53,515 bases of DNA. It comes from a virus. Both the position numbers and the translations under genes were made by a program. A model generated the notes under the pieces. That model did no database searches and had not been told where the DNA came from. It saw only the letters and a program-made list of their open reading frames with translations. Within the stretch, counting starts at the first letter, position 1, and each line of letters opens with the position of its first letter. Of this stretch, positions 42,433 to 53,439 are shown piece by piece. The stretch lies in IMG/VR virus record IMGVR_UViG_3300021373_000958, positions 1-53,515 of that record; one strand, given 5' to 3'.

Positions 42433-42579
42433 TCAACGACCCTGACCGCGATAACGCTTCTTACGACCATTACGAGAACTCGCACCCAGATGAGTGTTCT
42501 TCGAACGACCTTGACGGGTCTTCTTCGGAGCACCCTCGGTGTAGTTCGACTTTACCAAACCAACCTTTGCTTTTGCCAT
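42433..42579 (-). CDS. small basic protein conserved in T4-like cyanophages
   Basis: 48 residues, translated by hand from ATG 42579: MAKAKVGLVKSNYTEGAPKK, then many Arg/Lys/Gly/Ser (TRQGRSKNTHLGASSRNGRK), ending YRGQGR. It is very basic and low in hydrophobics, so it probably binds nucleic acid or an acidic partner. The N-terminal pattern K-A-x-x-GLVK-x-NYTEGAPxKTRQG is one I recognise from cyanophage genomes, with no assigned function. It sits 15 nt after the PAAR-like gene. Confidence 0.8.
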   Translation of the reverse strand: MAKAKVGLVKSNYTEGAPKKTRQGRSKNTHLGASSRNGRKKRYRGQGR

Positions 42580-43457: not shown

Positions 43458-43512
43458 TCTTTGACCTTTTTTCATGGGGAATTTTTTTGGGAATTTTTTT
43501 ATTTGCGAAGAA

Positions 43513-43520
43513 TATTTATC
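43513..43520 (-). promoter_or_regulatory. late promoter heading the late block
   Basis: The minus strand reads GATAAATA, 56 nt upstream of the ATG at 43457. The leader then passes two copies of AAAAAAATTCCC (43477-43500). It is the first late octamer met when entering the structural genes. Confidence 0.65.
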
Positions 43521-43590
43521 GGTCGTCTGGATACTTTTGTAGGTTAGGGAAGTAGTCGATTTTTGAAATCGCTTGGCGCCCTTAAGTATA

Positions 43591-43619
43591 ACAAAGGGGG
43601 GGCAATTAACTGTCCCCCC
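43591..43619 (-). terminator. G/C-rich terminator after the HicA-like gene
   Basis: The minus strand reads six G, then ACAG-TTAATT-G, then seven C: a 9-bp stem with a 6-nt loop (43596-43619), followed by TTTG. It begins 14 nt after the HicA-like stop and marks the boundary between the early small-gene region and the late block. Confidence 0.7.
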
Positions 43620-43632
43620 GTATACCTTACTG

Positions 43633-43809
43633 TCAGGCGCTAAGTGTCACCAATCGCCTCGCAATGTGTCGTGCTGTGTGTTCTTTAGGTCTGTATGGAA
43701 TAGTCATCACATTGCCTGATTTGTGTATCCATTTCTCATGCTTACTGCCATTGCGTTCTTTAATCCAACCGTTGGCAAGTGCTAAGCGTTTGAGTTGCTT
43801 GTCTGTCAT
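43633..43809 (-). CDS. HicA-like (YcfA) toxin-fold protein without a HicB partner
   Basis: 58 residues, translated by hand from ATG 43809: MTDKQLKRLALANGWIKERN, then GSKHEKW, a VMTIPYR strand, EHT and ARHIARRLV. This is the HicA mRNA-interferase fold: an N-terminal helix with xLxxxGW, a G-S-x-H motif carrying the catalytic-type His (H24), a V-x-x-IP strand and a C-terminal helix. HicA toxins cleave mRNA and are neutralised by HicB, usually encoded next door; neither neighbour looks like HicB. It could be an inactive RNA-binding protein or a host-directed interferase. A terminator follows 14 nt downstream. Confidence 0.75.
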   Translation of the reverse strand: MTDKQLKRLALANGWIKERNGSKHEKWIHKSGNVMTIPYRPKEHTARHIARRLVTLSA

Positions 43810-43847
43810 GTGGTTAGTGTAGAGAAATGCCTAGGTGCTAGGATGGG

Positions 43848-44021
43848 TCACCATGTGGGCAAGCGGTCGATCGCTTCCTGTGCATGGTGCTCTGCAAAGA
43901 CGCCAGCGATCATGTAGGCGCTGTGTGCTGTGCCCTGTAGAGTGTTGCTGCTGACCCATCCTGTCTGGCGGGTGCTGATGTCAGAGGCGAGGCGGAAGCA
44001 GGTGGGGTGGCGCTTAGTCAT
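43848..44021 (-). CDS. hypothetical small protein
   Basis: 57 residues, translated by hand from ATG 44021 (MTKRHPTCFRLASDISTRQT) to TGA at 43848. Contains a predicted amphipathic helix in the second half (AYMIAGVFAEHHAQEAIDRL). A TATAGT -10-like hexamer lies at 44044-44049. The DNA is GC-richer than the structural genes. No family recognised. Confidence 0.6.
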   Translation of the reverse strand: MTKRHPTCFRLASDISTRQTGWVSSNTLQGTAHSAYMIAGVFAEHHAQEAIDRLPTW

Positions 44022-44069
44022 GCTGTGCTGTGTGTGATGGGGTTACTATAGCATGGGGGGGGCGACCCC

Positions 44070-44339
44070 TCAGAGGTCTGCCATCATCTCGTTCATCTCA
44101 TCAGCGTCGATCGCCACGCTGTCCCATGCCACGCCGTCGCCAGTCTTGACGAGGTGGCGACCGATCTGCCCGTCAGTCATGCAGCGCACGAACTTATCCC
44201 AAGGGGTCTCGTCATCAGAGCAGAACTCGACACACGCCTTAGCGGTGTTGTAAAGAAATTCATCGTTGCCGATCCACAGGGCAGCGTTCCAAGTCTCGTA
44301 GGTTGCCCAACCGTTGTAAGTGGAGAGGGTGCTGGTCAT
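44070..44339 (-). CDS. DUF7249-like small protein
   Basis: 89 residues from ATG 44339 (MTSTLSTYNGWATYETWNAA); an in-frame start 28 codons upstream gives an unlikely basic extension. The N-GWATYETWN-x-ALWI-x-ND motif near residue 9 matches a short-protein family of phages and bacteria that I believe is named DUF7249, function unknown. It ends in an acidic helix (DADEMNEMMADL). Confidence 0.7.
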   Translation of the reverse strand: MTSTLSTYNGWATYETWNAALWIGNDEFLYNTAKACVEFCSDDETPWDKFVRCMTDGQIGRHLVKTGDGVAWDSVAIDADEMNEMMADL

Positions 44340-44383
44340 GTCGTTGTGTTTGTTTGTTGTGTGTATCCTAGTCGGTCTGCCGC

Positions 44384-44554
44384 TCAGTCGCGGTCGCTGA
44401 TGTGCCAGGTTGTGGATTGGCACTCAGGGGCAGGGAAGGGGAAAGGGCGACCCTCAGCGAACGCCTTGCGATTGGCAGCGGATCGTGCCATCATGGTGTT
44501 GTGCTGTTGAGTGTAGGATGCCATGATGGCGGCGAGGTCAGGTGTTTTGTTCAT
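44384..44554 (-). CDS. hypothetical small protein
   Basis: 56 residues from ATG 44554 (MNKTPDLAAIMASYTQQHNT). The longer in-frame start at 44629 would run through the promoter, so it is rejected. The C-terminal half is Pro/Phe-rich (EGRPFPFPAPECQ). The -10-like CATACT (44561-44566) lies only about 7 nt upstream of the ATG, implying an almost leaderless mRNA. Unknown function. Confidence 0.6.
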   Translation of the reverse strand: MNKTPDLAAIMASYTQQHNTMMARSAANRKAFAEGRPFPFPAPECQSTTWHISDRD

Positions 44555-44560
44555 GCTCTT

Positions 44561-44602
44561 AGTATGGCAGGTCTTGAGGCGCTTTGGGGGAAATGGTGGA
44601 CA
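44561..44602 (-). promoter_or_regulatory. TGTCCAC-box promoter, copy 1
   Basis: Minus strand: TGTCCAC at 44602-44596, a 29-nt C-rich spacer, then the -10-like CATACT (44566-44561), then the ATG at 44554. One of six promoters with this layout between 44.5 and 46.8 kb. Confidence 0.5.
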
Positions 44603-44607
44603 GTGCC

Positions 44608-44769
44608 TCAATCGTCCCAGTTCATCCATGCCTCGGGTTTGACGCCGCCAGGTGCTTTGATGGCGAACAGGACGCCAAACCCCATAGCAAGGGCGAACAG
44701 TAGGGCGACCTTGCCAGTGCCCTCAGGCAGTTGGTGGAATAGGTCGATGATGGGGGAGAGGTCGGGCAT
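44608..44769 (-). CDS. single-span membrane peptide
   Basis: 53 residues from ATG 44769 (MPDLSPIIDLFHQLPEGTGK), chosen over the in-frame ATG at 44841 because the longer form would cross the promoter. Residues 21-38 (VALLFALAMGFGVLFAI) form one transmembrane helix; the C-terminus is short with two Trp. Probably an inner-membrane peptide made early. No family recognised. Confidence 0.6.
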   Translation of the reverse strand: MPDLSPIIDLFHQLPEGTGKVALLFALAMGFGVLFAIKAPGGVKPEAWMNWDD

Positions 44770-44792
44770 CGGTCGTTTGCTTTGTTCCTTGT

Positions 44793-44835
44793 ATTCTACA
44801 GGGTCAGGGGCGCACAATCTGCTCAACAGTGGACA
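44793..44835 (-). promoter_or_regulatory. TGTCCAC-box promoter, copy 2
   Basis: Minus strand: TGTCCAC at 44835-44829 (inside the end of the upstream 37-residue gene), 30 nt, then TAGAAT (44798-44793), 24 nt from the next start at 44769. Confidence 0.45.
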
Positions 44836-44917
44836 GTGCATCTGCCGTCACATTACGGGCAGGGGTGCTGGTCCAGAATAGGACGCCAACCGCTGCTAGG
44901 ATGATCAGGCGCATCAT
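44804..44917 (-). CDS. 37-residue membrane or signal peptide protein
   Basis: Translated by hand from ATG 44917: MMRLIILAAVGVLFWTSTPA, then RNVTADALSTVEQIVRP. One hydrophobic helix followed by a short amphipathic tail; either a transmembrane anchor or a signal peptide ending near TPA. The pattern (hydrophobic helix with FW, then an xxTxDALxxx...VRP tail) is one I have met in tiny cyanophage proteins. ATGA overlap with the 73-residue gene supports the start. Confidence 0.65.
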   Translation of the reverse strand: MMRLIILAAVGVLFWTSTPARNVTADALSTVEQIVRP

Positions 44918-45135
44918 TTGGCAACCCCAAAGACGAGATCAGCGATGGCGTTGGTGTTCTCATCACAGCGGCACCACTTGATAGGGTCACCGTTAGGAGG
45001 GCACATCCAAATCATGCACTTCTCACCCCATGCCTGACCTAGGCGGAAGGCGTGATTCATGTCCTTTGCCCACAGGCACCCGTTAGGATCGAACTTGCCC
45101 CATGCTGTGGGTTGAACTGCGATGGCGTTGGTCAT
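44914..45135 (-). CDS. hypothetical Cys/Trp-rich protein
   Basis: 73 residues, MTNAIAVQPTAWGKFDPNGC. Cys occurs at about positions 20, 40, 45, 55 and 57 (NGCLW, KCMIWMCPP, WCRCDE), which could form a small zinc site. Four-base overlaps with both neighbours (45132-45135 and 44914-44917) place it in a three-gene coupled set. Function unknown. Confidence 0.65.
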   Translation of the reverse strand: MTNAIAVQPTAWGKFDPNGCLWAKDMNHAFRLGQAWGEKCMIWMCPPNGDPIKWCRCDENTNAIADLVFGVAK

Positions 45136-45260
45136 TTGGTCTTGCGTTTCGATGTAACCAGTATAAGGGCAGAGATGGCGCGTTTGGCGAGTTGAGTGGA
45201 CACCTGCTCAACTGGATGCCATTCTGCCTTGGGCAGGTAGGGCATAGAGTAATGTGCCAT
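45132..45260 (-). CDS. hypothetical 42-residue protein
   Basis: Translated by hand from ATG 45260 (MAHYSMPYLPKAEWHPVEQV) to TGA at 45132, ending in a basic tail (TSKRKTK). Contains a short hydrophobic helix (AISALILV). ATGA overlap with the next gene supports reality. The downstream TGTCCAC box (45196-45202) lies in its coding sequence. Confidence 0.55.
   Translation of the reverse strand: MAHYSMPYLPKAEWHPVEQVSTQLAKRAISALILVTSKRKTK
45161..45202 (-). promoter_or_regulatory. TGTCCAC-box promoter, copy 3
   Basis: Minus strand: TGTCCAC at 45202-45196, 29 nt, then TTATAC (45166-45161) preceded by TGCCC; 26 nt to the start at 45135. It overlaps the 42-residue gene. Confidence 0.45.
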
Positions 45261-45297
45261 TTGCCGTGGTAGTGTGGTTGTACTAATTCGAGCCGCG

Positions 45298-45325
45298 ATT
45301 CTCAATTAGAAAGTCTATTGAGAAT
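45298..45325. repeat. 9-bp perfect inverted repeat
   Basis: ATTCTCAAT (45298-45306) and ATTGAGAAT (45317-45325) around a 10-nt loop. It is in the gap between two small genes, with no T tract on either strand, so it is more likely an operator or RNA stem than a terminator. Confidence 0.5.
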
Positions 45326-45348
45326 GACAGATTAGAGGTGCTAAGTTA

Positions 45349-45537
45349 TCACTCCCCCAACAATTCGGGGTAGTATTCTTTCACCTCACCAATCAACTCA
45401 TCTACAGTGTACTTGTCCAAATTCTCATCGAATTGATCATACAAAAGCGCCATCATGTCTTTGATGTCCATACCATCCAAGATGGTGTTGATATAGTTTG
45501 CTTGCAGTTCGTCGCGGTCGATGATGTTGTCAGTCAT
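45349..45537 (-). CDS. small acidic protein conserved in cyanophages
   Basis: 62 residues: MTDNIIDRDELQANYINTIL, then DGMDIKDMMALLYDQ, a DKYTVDELIGEV segment and EYYPELL. All-helical and acidic. I recognise the layout (I-D-R-x-ELQ ... MDxKDxM ... LDKYxVDELIxEVxEYYPxLL) from short proteins in cyanophage early regions; no function is known. Single gene followed by an inverted repeat at 45298. Confidence 0.75.
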   Translation of the reverse strand: MTDNIIDRDELQANYINTILDGMDIKDMMALLYDQFDENLDKYTVDELIGEVKEYYPELLGE

Positions 45538-45573
45538 GATGATTGTGTGGTGATAGTGTTACGAAAGACCCGC

Positions 45574-45933
45574 TCAGGAGAGCAACAGTTGATGAGACAG
45601 AGCGCCCATCTTCATACCGTTACGAAACTCAGTCACAAAGAATTCAGTGCCATTGTAGAGACGAACAAACCACTGATAGTTCTTTTGGAATACACCTTCG
45701 CCAGCAATAGCGCACTCGCTGAAGATAGCATTCAGGCGAGACTTGGTGGTAGTAGACTGCCAACCACCATCAAAGATGCGAATGTAGTTCTCACCCACAT
45801 CTGCAATGTGGTTGCCGTGCAAATACACTTTGCTCTCTTGAGTGTCAGCGTCAAACTCTACACGAGTGTTAGCAGAATGCCAGTTGTCGCTGTTAGCGAT
45901 AGCGTTGAGCATTTGGCGTTCGATTTTACGCAT
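45574..45933 (-). CDS. conserved hypothetical protein
   Basis: 119 residues starting MRKIERQMLNAIANSDNWHS. Alternating strands (TRVEFDADTQESKVYLHGNH) then a W-Q-STTTKSRLNAIF segment and a second sheet with Phe/Tyr (QWFVRLYNGTEFFV). The RQML-x-AI opening with a YLHG-x-xI strand and a TTKSRLNA helix recurs in small cyanophage and cyanobacterial proteins of unknown role. Driven by TGTCCAC-box copy 4. Confidence 0.7.
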   Translation of the reverse strand: MRKIERQMLNAIANSDNWHSANTRVEFDADTQESKVYLHGNHIADVGENYIRIFDGGWQSTTTKSRLNAIFSECAIAGEGVFQKNYQWFVRLYNGTEFFVTEFRNGMKMGALSHQLLLS

Positions 45934-45961
45934 GAAAGTCGTTGGTTTTTGAACTTGAAAC

Positions 45962-46003
45962 TACAATACAGGATCAGGGGGGCAATGGGGAGAATGGTGG
46001 ACA
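45962..46003 (-). promoter_or_regulatory. TGTCCAC-box promoter, copy 4
   Basis: Minus strand: TGTCCAC at 46003-45997, 26 nt including CCCC runs, then TGTATTGTA (45970-45962), 29 nt from the start at 45933. It lies in the intergenic gap. Confidence 0.55.
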
Positions 46004-46015
46004 CTCCCCCAATTG

Positions 46016-46213
46016 TCACATGCCGAAGAACTCTTCGAACTCGTCAGCGATACGATCGATTAACCAGTCGCTAGCGTTCACGCTGAACACATCACAGACC
46101 CAATCGACGCAATCGTTGAGATCAGTCATGTTAGAACACATGTACTCCCGAAGGGCGGGAGCGATATCCAGATCGAACTGGTGGACCATGGAGGAAGTGA
46201 GGTTGTTTGTCAT
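46016..46213 (-). CDS. hypothetical small acidic protein
   Basis: 65 residues, MTNNLTSSMVHQFDLDIAPA, rich in Asp/Glu with WVCDVF and WLIDRIADEFEEFFGM helices. The ATG lies only 7 nt from a TATAAT hexamer (46225-46220), so its mRNA may be nearly leaderless. No family recognised. Confidence 0.65.
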   Translation of the reverse strand: MTNNLTSSMVHQFDLDIAPALREYMCSNMTDLNDCVDWVCDVFSVNASDWLIDRIADEFEEFFGM

Positions 46214-46219
46214 GTAGAC

Positions 46220-46262
46220 ATTATAGGCACGGGTGGGGACGATCTGCGAGGCAAAGTGGACA
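46220..46262 (-). promoter_or_regulatory. TGTCCAC-box promoter, copy 5
   Basis: Minus strand: TGTCCAC at 46262-46256, 30 nt, then a perfect TATAAT (46225-46220) preceded by TGCC. It has the best -10 of the set. Confidence 0.6.
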
Positions 46263-46276
46263 CTCTGCCAACTGTC

Positions 46277-46534
46277 CTAGTCCTGGGTCGTGTAATCTAT
46301 ATCAAAGGTAGACTCACATTCAGGCATATCGTTATCATCCAGGATGATACGGTAGTCTATACTTTTCACACAATATCCTGCAGCAGCAGTAATCTCTTCT
46401 ACGAGATCATCACCATCATCTGCCTCCCAAAATGTGCCGATGTAATCATCAAAAAACTCAGCACATTCTTGCTCAGTCATAGGATAGAGACTATCCTCAA
46501 AATCGAACTCAATTTGTGTAACTTGGAATTGCAT
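46277..46534 (-). CDS. conserved hypothetical acidic protein
   Basis: 85 residues, MQFQVTQIEFDFEDSLYPMT, then a YIGTFWEADDGDDLVEEITA segment and GYCVKSIDYRIIL. A small alpha/beta protein; the I-G-x-x-(F/W)-E-x-DD-x-(D/E)-LV-E-x-I...WCVKSIDY-type layout is common in cyanophage hypotheticals. Function unknown. A 17-bp direct repeat lies just upstream of the ATG. Confidence 0.7.
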   Translation of the reverse strand: MQFQVTQIEFDFEDSLYPMTEQECAEFFDDYIGTFWEADDGDDLVEEITAAAGYCVKSIDYRIILDDNDMPECESTFDIDYTTQD

Positions 46535-46535
46535 G

Positions 46536-46577
46536 GTTAGTGTCAGTTAGTGATGAATGAGTTAGTGTCAGTTAGTG
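46536..46577. repeat. 17-bp direct repeat
   Basis: GTTAGTGTCAGTTAGTG occurs at 46536-46552 and 46561-46577. Each copy is itself two near-identical GTTAGTG units around TCA. The second copy contains the stop codon of the 53-residue gene (46568-46570). It may be a small duplication at the gene junction. Confidence 0.6.
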
Positions 46578-46729
46578 CCGAACATTTCTTTGTACAAATC
46601 GAGATCCTGGTTCTTATACTTTTCATTGGTTAACCAAATCTCTTGTTCAATCCAGGCAACTTGCTGCCGTGCTTTAATCAAACTCTCACGCAGTTCGTAT
46701 AACTTTTGGTTGCGCTCAGTGATAGTCAA
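46568..46729 (-). CDS. small coiled-coil protein with a TTG start
   Basis: 53 residues, translated by hand: (M)LTITERNQKLYELRESLIKA... wait-free of stops from TTG 46729 to TGA 46568; the first 19 residues after Met are LTITERNQKLYELRESLIK. The sequence is helical and charged, with a QEIWLTNEKYK segment. No ATG or GTG is available in frame below the upstream TGA; an ATT directly before the TTG is the only alternative. It begins 26 nt from the copy-6 promoter. Confidence 0.55.
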   Translation of the reverse strand: MTITERNQKLYELRESLIKARQQVAWIEQEIWLTNEKYKNQDLDLYKEMFGTN

Positions 46730-46754
46730 AATGGAAAAATCCCGTCAACATGTA

Positions 46755-46796
46755 TACAATACACGATAACGGGACAGATGGGGGATTAGGTGGACA
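46755..46796 (-). promoter_or_regulatory. TGTCCAC-box promoter, copy 6
   Basis: Minus strand: TGTCCAC at 46796-46790, 26 nt, then TGTATTGTA (46763-46755), identical to copy 4; 26 nt to the TTG start at 46729. A 6-bp inverted repeat (TCCCGT/ACGGGA, 46740-46745 and 46769-46774) encloses the -10. Confidence 0.55.
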
Positions 46797-46798
46797 GT

Positions 46799-46957
46799 TC
46801 AATAAGTGTCATAGTATTCGTCCGTTTCCCTCTTGAATTTGGTAACTTTCTTTTTAGTCTGCCTTCGAATGTTCTTTACTTCATAACCAAAGTCTTCGAA
46901 TTCTTCATCGAATTGTTGAAACTTTTGGTTGTCGGACTGATTGTAACGTTTGCCCAT
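46799..46957 (-). CDS. hypothetical small charged protein
   Basis: 52 residues, translated by hand from ATG 46957: MGKRYNQSDNQKFQQFDEEF, a VKNIRRQTKKKV basic stretch, ending TDEYYDTY. Predicted helical with separated acidic and basic patches. No known family. It is followed at once by the copy-6 TGTCCAC box. Confidence 0.65.
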   Translation of the reverse strand: MGKRYNQSDNQKFQQFDEEFEDFGYEVKNIRRQTKKKVTKFKRETDEYYDTY

Positions 46958-47236: not shown

Positions 47237-47621
47237 GTCTTTTGGTGTTAATTGTTAAAGTTTAAAGTTTAAAAATCCAAAAAACTTAAAAAAACAAGAA
47301 TTTAAGTTTTCTCATTTTTTCAAAATCTTAAAAAAGTCAGTTTTTTGGATTTTTGAGATTTAGAGAAAACTCGAAAGTCCTCCCCTTGCCTCATGACAGT
47401 ATTATAGGGCACCTTGGAGGGTCTCTGAGGGTTTCTGTGCCACTTTGAGGACTGGCACATGTGTTCTTGACTTTCGATAGGTAGCGTGCTAAGCCAACAT
47501 CTCCACCGCGCCTTTACCCTATTTAATTAACCATTTCTTATTATTGATTATCAATAAGACTTCCTTATTGAGAACCATTGGTATCACTAGCGCGGAGCAC
47601 CTTGAAAACTACATAATTTTC
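47237..47621. other. 385-bp intergenic region with stem-loops and a TATAAT
   Basis: The longest gene-free stretch. It holds a 16-bp inverted repeat (47271-47354), TTTAAAGTTTAAA repeats near 47259-47273, a minus-strand TATAAT (47405-47400) preceded by GTGCCC like other -10s here, a 7-bp stem TGTGCCA/TGGCACA (47436-47459), separated TCGAAAGTC/GACTTTCGA arms (47371-47379 and 47470-47478), and one copy of a 16-bp near-palindrome (47541-47556). No convincing protein or tRNA gene. Probably a regulatory region for the KTSC-like gene. Confidence 0.55.
47271..47354. repeat. perfect 16-bp inverted repeat
   Basis: AAAAATCCAAAAAACT (47271-47286) and its exact complement (47339-47354) are separated by 52 AT-rich bases. 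In the minus-strand RNA this would fold into a long hairpin ending 35 nt before the KTSC-like start, with a short T run after the second arm. Confidence 0.65.
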
Positions 47622-48426: not shown

Positions 48427-48956
48427 AGTGCTAGATTAAATGAGAGGGCGATGCGTTCTTCATCAGTAGTAGAGAAATATACTCTGTGTCTAAGTGATGC
48501 AGGGAACATTAACATTTGCCCTTCTACTGGTGTGAACTTATAGACAGTGTAATAATTATACTGTTGTTGTAGTTCTGGTTTGAATGAATTGATTGCTTTG
48601 TATTGTGCGAAGCAATCAGGATGTTCAAACTCTAGTGGTGCTGGATCTGGTGGTAGTTTCAACCATAATACACCTGCCCAATCATTTCTTGGATGTTGGT
48701 GTGAGTAATTACCTTGTAGATTAGTATTGACCATATACCATGCTAGTGATGAAGTATATGGGAATGGAATATATGGTGAGAGTAGATCAGGTAATGGTTG
48801 ATAGTTAGAATGCCATCCACCCATATTAGATGCTTTCATTCCTTTGGTATCTTGTTGTCTGAGTTTGTTTAATTCAGGCAATAGATCTTTGTAGTTTGGT
48901 ATTTGGAATTGTAGCACCATTGTAGGGAACAATGGGATGGCATTACATTCAATCAT
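48423..48956 (-). CDS. 2OG-Fe(II) oxygenase family protein (TIGR02466-like)
   Basis: 177 residues. Putative iron ligands are H86 and H88 (NYSHQHPRNDWAGVLWL) and H157 (FPASLRHRVYFS), with R168 (EERIALSFNL) as the 2-oxoglutarate anchor. This is the same HxH...H...R layout as the oxygenase at 2125-2721, but it lies in the early region, far from the structural genes. It overlaps the AbrB-like gene by 8 nt and the membrane peptide by 4 nt. The substrate is unknown. Confidence 0.7.
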   Translation of the reverse strand: MIECNAIPLFPTMVLQFQIPNYKDLLPELNKLRQQDTKGMKASNMGGWHSNYQPLPDLLSPYIPFPYTSSLAWYMVNTNLQGNYSHQHPRNDWAGVLWLKLPPDPAPLEFEHPDCFAQYKAINSFKPELQQQYNYYTVYKFTPVEGQMLMFPASLRHRVYFSTTDEERIALSFNLAL

Positions 48957-49149
48957 CTACTTTCTTAATCGTGATAGTATTATCATCATTGACAATCCAT
49001 TCTAACACATCACCTTCTTGCCAGTCAAGTTCATCTAGGATCTCATCTGGTAGAGGGAGAATGCATTCATCACCGTCCTCCTCCAGTGTAACAGTATAGT
49101 TTGTATTGGGGGTTGTATCGTTCAATGTATTTTCTAGCATGTTCTTCAC
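48949..49149 (-). CDS. AbrB/MazE-like (SpoVT-AbrB) small protein
   Basis: 66 residues. The YTVTLEEDGDECILPLPDEI opening, then LDELDWQEGDVLEWI and a TITIKKV strand match the swapped-hairpin AbrB fold: a polar strand, a (I/L)-P-LP-x-x-(I/L)-L helix, then W-x-x-GD-x-L-x-W. Such proteins bind DNA and often act as antitoxin repressors. No toxin gene is adjacent. ATG 49149 (or 49140) is used; the first 80 nt also encode a protein-like sequence in another frame (49070-49196). Confidence 0.7.
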   Translation of the reverse strand: MKNMLENTLNDTTPNTNYTVTLEEDGDECILPLPDEILDELDWQEGDVLEWIVNDDNTITIKKVDD

Positions 49150-52660: not shown

Positions 52661-53074
52661 TCAACGCATGTAGAGGTAACCACCTGCCCAGTCACACTTT
52701 TCAAACATCTCTTCGCGGGAAGGAATAGAGAGAAGATTGTAACGAACACCCTTGGCAGGCGCTTTGGTGTTAGCAGGTTTGTAGACCTCACCAGTCTTCT
52801 TGTCAATGAAAGCGTGGATACTATCACGCTTGCCGTTGATGGTCATGTAGATCTTGTGATACTTACGACCATCAGAGTTCAAGTCATAACCATAACCATC
52901 AGGAGCATCTTGAGTGAGAGCATCACACAGCATCAGGCAATACTTCACGATGTTGAGGTGAATGGTGTTGCGGGCGGTTTGCTCGGAAGCGAACTGGGCG
53001 AAGGTGGCGGTCATGTCGTTGTCTGAACTGAGATCAGTATAGAGGGTCTTGGTGGGGTTCGGGAGACTGATCAT
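52661..53074 (-). CDS. conserved hypothetical protein
   Basis: 137 residues, MISLPNPTKTLYTDLSSDND. The C-terminal half is distinctive: GRKYHKIYM, then SIHAFIDKKTGEVYKPANTK, APAKGVRYNLL and CDWAGGYLYMR. The H-A-F-x-DK-x-TG-x-VYKPA ... APAKGVRYNLL ... DWAGGYLYxR block recurs in cyanophages and some bacteria, suggesting a folded domain of unknown role. ATGA overlap with the upstream gene. Confidence 0.75.
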   Translation of the reverse strand: MISLPNPTKTLYTDLSSDNDMTATFAQFASEQTARNTIHLNIVKYCLMLCDALTQDAPDGYGYDLNSDGRKYHKIYMTINGKRDSIHAFIDKKTGEVYKPANTKAPAKGVRYNLLSIPSREEMFEKCDWAGGYLYMR

Positions 53075-53277
53075 GCCACTTCCTCAGCTGGCACACGGGA
53101 CACGGTGAGACGCTTGAAGTCATACTGACGCCAGGCATCACATGCCTCGTTCACCATACGATTGTGCTGACGGTCCATGCCCTTGGCAGTGGTGCAACGC
53201 TTGACCTTACGGAAATACACGATGGGGATCTCGGTCTCGGGCATGTCGATCTCGATCTTGTAGTGTGAGTAGGTCAT
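53071..53277 (-). CDS. small conserved hypothetical protein
   Basis: 68 residues, MTYSHYKIEIDMPETEIPIV, then YFRKVKRCTTAKGMDRQHNR and a basic end (KRLTVSRVPAEEVA). An AGGA Shine-Dalgarno precedes the ATG. The promoter candidate at 53304-53345 (TGTCCTA variant plus TATACT) lies just upstream. Function unknown. Confidence 0.65.
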   Translation of the reverse strand: MTYSHYKIEIDMPETEIPIVYFRKVKRCTTAKGMDRQHNRMVNEACDAWRQYDFKRLTVSRVPAEEVA

Positions 53278-53303: not shown

Positions 53304-53345
53304 AGTATAGGGCAGATCAGAGCAGTTCTCGTGCCTCGTAGGACA
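53304..53345 (-). promoter_or_regulatory. possible seventh TGTCCAC-type promoter (TGTCCTA variant)
   Basis: Minus strand: TGTCCTA at 53345-53339, 29 nt, then TATACT (53309-53304) preceded by TGCCC; 26 nt to the start at 53277. The box has one mismatch, but the spacing is the same as in the six exact copies. Confidence 0.4.
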
Positions 53346-53439
53346 GTTCCTCAACTGGCATATCGCGTTCGATCTCGGTCACATCGTATTCTTCATCGAG
53401 TTGATCCAGGAGCCAGCGGTCGAGCATAACTTCATTCAT
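53317..53439 (-). CDS. hypothetical 40-residue acidic protein
   Basis: Translated by hand from ATG 53439: MNEVMLDRWLLDQLDEEYDV, then TEIERDMPVEELSYEARELL. Helical, acidic, no membrane span. There is no clear Shine-Dalgarno, so confidence is moderate. Confidence 0.5.
   Translation of the reverse strand: MNEVMLDRWLLDQLDEEYDVTEIERDMPVEELSYEARELL

Follow-up and report, generated by a model that had tools for sequence, protein, structure and literature searches.

A 24-bp dyad in place of the -35 element marks a probable class of early promoters in marine T4-like cyanophages

Introduction

Lytic cyanophages take over the RNA polymerase of their host within minutes without MotA/AsiA, yet many scattered small genes seem to be switched on together, which raises the question of what promoter signal these genes might share. 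Marine T4-like cyanophages have been described as lacking T4-like middle promoters and motA and/or asiA (PMC5780444). We addressed this question in the virus record IMGVR_UViG_3300021373_000958 (IMG/VR), a virus fragment of 53,515 nt to which, at its full length, we refer as the window. At its small-gene end, a first-pass annotation had placed the box TGTCCAC upstream of six -10-like hexamers. The phages nearest to this end are S-WAM2 (86% identity), S-RSM4 (80%) and S-H9-1 (79%), all of which are marine T4-like cyanophages. Here we report that the box belongs to a 24-bp dyad held at a fixed distance from the -10 hexamer, and that the -10 and a dimer-bound dyad replacing the -35 element probably constitute activator-dependent early promoters of these phages.

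Materials and methods

Eighty viral-contig loci were collected around the orthologue of the window gene 45933-45574. Together with seven relatives and the window's end they gave 88 sequences, in which each 7-mer was tested, without bias, for a constant distance to a -10 hexamer. A position weight matrix (PWM) for the composite of dyad and -10 was trained on the viral-contig loci only and iterated, with score cut-offs of at least 18 for genome counts and at least 20 for strong sites in block counts. Markov-random sequence served as the control for genomes and the reversed pattern as the control for host-family genomes. Orthologue tallies count cases with distinct upstream sequence, with totals summed by hand; because the dyad is palindromic, some genome sites are counted on both strands.

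Results

The box is clustered and fixed in its distance to the -10

All six copies of TGTCCAC attributed to the minus strand (starting at 44602, 44835, 45202, 46003, 46262 and 46796) are present. Over the whole window the box is not enriched, with 9 copies seen versus 7.4 expected; the signal is its local cluster and spacing, not its window-wide abundance. When the minus strand of 44501-46900 was shuffled with its dinucleotides preserved, copies averaged 0.28 and numbered 3 at most, and not one of 1000 shuffles yielded any box/-10 pair, as opposed to the six pairs observed. The distance between the two elements had been given as nearly constant at 26-31 nt: the fixed spacing holds, with a tighter range of 28-30 nt from the end of the box to the start of the -10. 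The listed hexamers likewise lie where they were reported, except that the one following the box at 45202 is TATACT, the reading TTATAC being off by one base.

In the unbiased scan of the 88 sequences, TGTCCAC ranked first among 7-mers for a fixed -10 distance, with 90 of 193 distinct contexts showing it versus 2.1 expected; spacings of 28, 29 and 30 nt were equally common, and the reversed word gave no fixed-distance signal. Next in rank came TGGCACA and GTGTCAC, which occupy roughly the position of TGTCCAC, together with two words of the left half, TGTGACA/TGTGCCA, lying another 17 nt upstream. The operator consensus is the 24-bp dyad TGTGNCAGTT-N4-AACTGNCACA, of which the left half is GTG[CA]CAGTT (GTG[AC]CAGTTG in the aligned sites) and the right half its reverse complement. 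TGTCCAC is a variant of the right half with one added base, and GTGGACA is the same variant of the left half. The TTGR noted 6-8 nt upstream of the box is no separate element: these bases close off the left, inverted half-site on its inner side. Hence what had been described as six promoters with a shared box is indeed one class with a fixed upstream site, although its unit is the dyad rather than the 7-mer and its members in the window number ten.

With the -10 placed at -12, the centre of the dyad lies near -53.5 and its span is about -65 to -42, the spacing to the -10 across the class being 28-32 nt. Conserved columns of the aligned sites are confined mainly to the dyad and the -10, while the spacer and flanks drift. 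In agreement with the first-pass annotation, the column frequencies of the aligned spacers show no -35 consensus, and in particular no TTGACA-like element 16-18 nt upstream of the -10, which distinguishes the class from host sigma-70 and T4 early promoters. A separate class, with CTTGACA 15-18 nt before the -10, appeared in the same regions in the 7-mer scan.

Ten copies in the window

The trained model finds ten strong composites in the window, all on the minus strand, and no composite scoring above 13 in the structural genes (1-43 kb). The copies at 47459, 53095 and 44424 had been missed at first because they carry TGGCAC or TGGCAT and are invisible to a TGTCCAC search. The copies and associated features are as follows.

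44402-44424, minus strand: dyad, TGGCAC form; -10 TAGGAT 44370-44365; gene 44339-44070; PWM score 19.7; kept in 16/26 orthologues.
44596-44619, minus strand: dyad; box 44602-44596; spacing 29; -10 CATACT 44566-44561; PWM score 29.7; kept in 10/13 orthologues.
44554-44384, minus strand: gene of the 44602-box promoter; ATG 6 nt after the -10 CATACT, predicted leaderless.
44829-44852, minus strand: dyad; spacing 30; -10 TAGAAT 44798-44793; gene 44769-44608; PWM score 27.5.
45196-45219, minus strand: dyad with a weak left half (gcatccagttg); spacing 30; -10 TATACT 45165-45160; gene 45135-44914; PWM score 22.6; kept in 16/25 orthologues.
45997-46020, minus strand: dyad; spacing 28; -10 TATTGT 45968-45963; gene 45933-45574; PWM score 30.6; kept in 54/69 orthologues.
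46256-46279, minus strand: dyad; spacing 30; -10 TATAAT 46225-46220; PWM score 32.2; kept in 3/4 orthologues.
46213-46016, minus strand: gene of the 46262-box promoter; ATG 6 nt after the -10 TATAAT, predicted leaderless.
46790-46813, minus strand: dyad; spacing 28; -10 TATTGT 46761-46756, within a terminator-like hairpin; gene 46729-46568; PWM score 29.3; kept in 5/7 orthologues.
46735-46775, minus strand: stem-loop GUCCCGUUA...UGACGGGAU with a U run behind it; overlaps the 46796 promoter at its -10 and start region.
47437-47459, minus strand: dyad, TGGCAC form; -10 TATAAT 47406-47401; PWM score 33.9, the highest in the window; kept in 6/7 orthologues.
Behind the 47459 promoter, minus strand: open reading frame (ORF) of 24 codons with its ATG 6 nt after the -10, followed by gene 47236-46991.
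53073-53095, minus strand: dyad, TGGCAT form; -10 TATACT 53041-53036; gene 53014-52661; PWM score 27.8; kept in 2/2 orthologues.
53339-53362, minus strand: dyad, TGTCCTA form, previously suggested as a possible seventh member from its box at 53345; -10 TATACT 53309-53304; gene 53277-53071; PWM score 25.9; kept in 5/6 orthologues.

The composite is conserved with the genes and across T4-like cyanophages

Absence of the box upstream of orthologous genes in related phages had been set down beforehand as the observation that would speak against such a promoter class. In fact, among orthologues of the ten window genes with a composite, each of which has at least one orthologue, 126 of 174 (72%) retain it, whereas orthologues of neighbouring window genes without a composite have one in only 8 of 139. 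The gene 45933-45574 encodes the Pfam family Kyano_Gp96, and its Syn9 orthologue, gp90, also has a composite upstream. The composite is conserved at the IMG/VR viral-contig loci as well.

The profile scan proposed for related cyanophages showed the class to be abundant in the T4-like group. Counts of sites in the genome and in Markov-random sequence, respectively, were 28 and 1 for S-PM2d, 23 and 0 for S-RSM4, 21 and 0 for P-TIM40, 17 and 2 for P-HM2, and 45 and 0 for the freshwater phage S-CRM01; Syn9 has 13 sites and P-SSM2 has 33, and none was found in T4, Ma-LMM01 or P-SSP7. With at most three mismatches allowed, each carrier genome has 4-17 copies of the palindrome, and the siphovirus PSS2 and KVP40 have none. 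Strong sites cluster in one small-gene block in Syn9 (9/11, at 42.5-54.4 kb) and P-TIM40 (13/18, at 44-57 kb), whose dense blocks we take to be the early blocks, and also in S-RSM4 (11/17) and P-HM2 (9/15). In S-PM2d, too, such a block holds 13 of the 23 strong sites, both strands counted, within the first 17.5 kb; a 2015 paper (PMC4503421) rates the density of promoter-stem-loops in the S-PM2 ORFan region as low.

The promoter-rich block of the window (43500-46500) has a G+C content of 47-58%; the structural genes, like the first small genes adjoining the block, have 34-46%. A small protein encoded there (43633-43809, minus strand) has a weak HicA-like toxin match (25.0 bits in Pfam, just below the cut-off; PHROG 353, 'toxin').

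The dyad behaves as a DNA operator

Inverted halves could also pair in RNA as a stem-loop, which might for instance act as terminator for the gene upstream, and the repeats do adjoin that gene's stop codon. However, positions that vary in one half do so independently of those in the other (Fisher p 0.28), and Watson-Crick pairing of the middle column is 0.28 versus 0.43 expected, that is, below chance. We therefore regard the dyad as a DNA operator and not an RNA stem. Moreover, no U run follows the dyad, and three of the four folded copies have z-scores of -1.2 or weaker. The lack of covariation rules out the stem-loop reading to the point that we give it almost no weight.

A different role for RNA structure is suggested at the 46796 copy, where the stem-loop at 46735-46775 folds with -20.1 kcal/mol (z -5.2). 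Stem and U run are kept in S-RSM4, S-WAM2 and S-B43, with a shorter stem in S-CAM4, and judging by its sequence this copy is a predicted combined terminator and promoter of the promoter-stem-loop (PeSL) kind. PeSL promoter/terminator cassettes are known from T4-like phages (Arbiol 2010 and Comeau 2014, as cited in PMC4503421). Like them, the dyad promoters are early promoters, as we read them, between small variable genes, and one copy overlaps a strong terminator hairpin; unlike in PeSLs, the stem-loop is not general in the class. A terminator as a general feature of the spacer is ruled out, since spacers fold no better than shuffles (in 49% the fold is more stable than the mean of that spacer's own shuffles).

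It is quite unlikely that the repeats are no more than recombination cassettes of this kind, with their sequence kept for gene shuffling and not for the binding of a regulator. Such an origin would be in line with the position of the copies between variable small genes, with the near-identical cassettes that stand ahead of different genes in relatives and with the hairpin of the 46796 copy. On the other hand, it would not lead one to expect conservation concentrated in the dyad and -10 while the spacer and flanks drift, spacers without added folding stability over shuffles, or a dyad geometry that persists even in distant phages; gene shuffling may be a side effect.

Start codons at the predicted transcription start

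Among 238 strong sites, 41 have an ATG exactly 6 nt after the -10, and a second peak lies at 21-28 nt. An ATG in the former position coincides with the predicted +1, and therefore a sizeable fraction of the transcripts should be leaderless. Leaderless candidates in the window are two genes, starting at 46213 and at 44554, as well as the short ORF behind the 47459 promoter.

The dyad is not in excess in host genomes, and a diverged form occurs in S-TIM5

Could the operator belong to the host? A picocyanobacterial transcription factor that binds the dyad and is exploited by the phages from the first minute is a serious, if less than even, possibility; it is a question of where the activator comes from and otherwise overlaps with activation through the dyad. 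Early genes must be read before any phage protein exists, and the dyad follows host as well as phage kinship: at up to three mismatches it is missing from HTVC008M, a SAR11 phage assigned to that family too. Furthermore, the host protein PhoB acts on other S-PM2 promoters (PMC10976474). Host genomes themselves speak against the idea. The palindrome has no match with up to three mismatches in WH7803, RCC307 or WH5701, is not in excess in eight cyanobacterial genomes, and in 151 host-family genomes does not exceed the reversed-pattern control (about 76 matches each, by hand tally); the host sites that we inspected mostly lack a well-placed -10. A host operator is thus unsupported.

S-TIM5 (JQ245707), a cyanomyovirus of an unrelated lineage infecting Synechococcus, has a diverged dyad, roughly GNCAGTTG-N3-AACTGGCCCA, whose distance to the -10 is unchanged; an unbiased 6-mer scan recovered it independently. 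These dyads cluster at 163-171 kb (locus L405), often with an ATG 6 nt after the -10. Occurrence in an unrelated lineage that infects Synechococcus fits a host factor, while the different flanking bases suggest a co-evolved phage regulator.

Discussion

We propose that at these promoters host RNA polymerase with the main sigma factor would read the -10 hexamer, and that a dimeric DNA-binding protein on the dyad would recruit it in place of a -35 element. Scattered small take-over genes would thereby be turned on as a set. The predicted start of transcription is about 6 nt past the -10; in many copies this is exactly the A of the ATG, so that the mRNAs would be leaderless.

Several points weigh against this proposal. 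For a virus fragment such as the window, early timing is inferred from relatives. Of 600 positions drawn at random in these dense regions, 54 have a composite no more than 200 bp away, though this share is far below the 72% of the orthologues. A dyad upstream of a -10 could also be a repressor site or serve recombination, and among the binder candidates compared across carriers there was none whose presence clearly tracks the dyad.

A phage repressor that closes early promoters later, with initiation needing the -10 alone, is an unlikely role for the dyad. A fixed-distance dyad also fits repression, and activation cannot be told from repression by sequence alone; but a class without a -35, with its site at about -65 to -42 and 28-32 nt from the -10, has the layout typical of activators. 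A parallel is the middle promoter of Mu, at which the 16-bp Mor site, a dyad centred at -43.5, replaces the -35 (PMC4390567). It shares with the cyanophage promoters a -10 without a -35 and, if a dimer does bind the cyanophage dyad, a dimeric activator just upstream; it differs in the size and position of the site (24 bp near -53.5 in cyanophages).

As for the putative activator, two considerations pull in different directions. Its requirement from the very start speaks for a host or virion protein, while the missing host sites and the changed flanks in S-TIM5 speak for a phage protein. We lean slightly towards a phage-encoded protein, perhaps delivered by the virion, over a host protein.

The candidates set aside are these. 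The conserved Syn9 proteins DUF7207, DUF6433, DUF3110 and DUF6267 are in all carriers compared and have no clear DNA-binding domain; the same is true of phrog_385 ('transcriptional regulator'), which has no supporting Pfam domain. The MazE/AbrB-like small DNA-binding protein at 48949-49149 (minus strand) has homologues in S-RSM4, Syn9 and S-PM2d, and none was found in P-TIM40, P-HM2 or S-CRM01. The basic 48-aa protein at 42436-42579 (minus strand) has a possible weak homologue in the dyad-less HTVC008M. This last protein (phrog_516), with 15 K/R and 1 acidic residue, is conserved in S-TIM5 as well as in every T4-like cyanophage examined. An activator of the Ogr/Delta type was also rejected: no Ogr_Delta protein (PF04606) was found in the seven carrier phages searched, and it is absent from nine phage records.

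In late promoters of P2 and P4, a dyad centred near -55 accompanies a -10 and no good -35, an arrangement like that of the cyanophage class. The differences are that they are late and not early, and that their Ogr/Delta site is TGT-N12-ACA (PMC3931495) as compared with TGT-N18-ACA here. The layout had also been called distinct from that of T4 middle promoters, and this is borne out: the conserved site ends near -42. T4 middle promoters have the MotA box at the -35 position and resemble the dyad promoters in having an activator-type site upstream of the -10; the latter have no conserved box at -35, and the T4 genome itself scores no dyad site. The Pho box, with its YTTAAYYW repeats (PMC10976474), is not contained in the dyad when the two are compared by consensus. 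A separate observation concerns the putative Pho box of S-PM2d250, CCTATACT GAT CTCAGTTC (PMC10976474, Table 2). It resembles the -10 and start region of the dyad class (TATACTgatctcagttca; cf. 53041-53020 in the window), and so may not be a Pho box.

Our literature searches for the motif or its description returned nothing relevant, the full text of Doron et al. 2016 and of the PeSL papers lying outside the search. Doron et al. 2016 (ISME J 10:1437) reportedly found a novel regulatory element controlling the early genes of Syn9 and P-TIM40, with host-like promoters driving the middle genes and both classes said to be widespread in T4-like cyanophages. Because the dyad is dense in the small-gene blocks of the same two phages and a separate TTGACA class arises in the same scan, matching the reported host-like middle promoters, the dyad promoter is very probably this early element seen in finer detail. 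The two are likened by phages and gene blocks rather than by logo; they share occurrence in Syn9 and P-TIM40, the lack of a host -35 and a wide spread in T4-like cyanophages. That work may or may not already describe the centre of the dyad, the two half-site lengths, the leaderless starts and the variant in S-TIM5.

Taken further, and with considerable doubt, T4-like cyanophages and the S-TIM5 lineage might share an undescribed family of dimeric, virion-delivered activators of early transcription that act on lineage-specific dyads near -53.5, replace the -35 and often give leaderless mRNAs. The precise operator, a 24-bp dyad with fixed spacing and two half-site forms, offers a bait for finding the activator, and the diverged dyad of S-TIM5 a natural specificity swap. 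The dyad model can also be run on any cyanophage contig to predict early genes, and it yields short, testable promoters. If the binder does reside in the virion, these phages would have a strategy of early transcription unlike that of T4.

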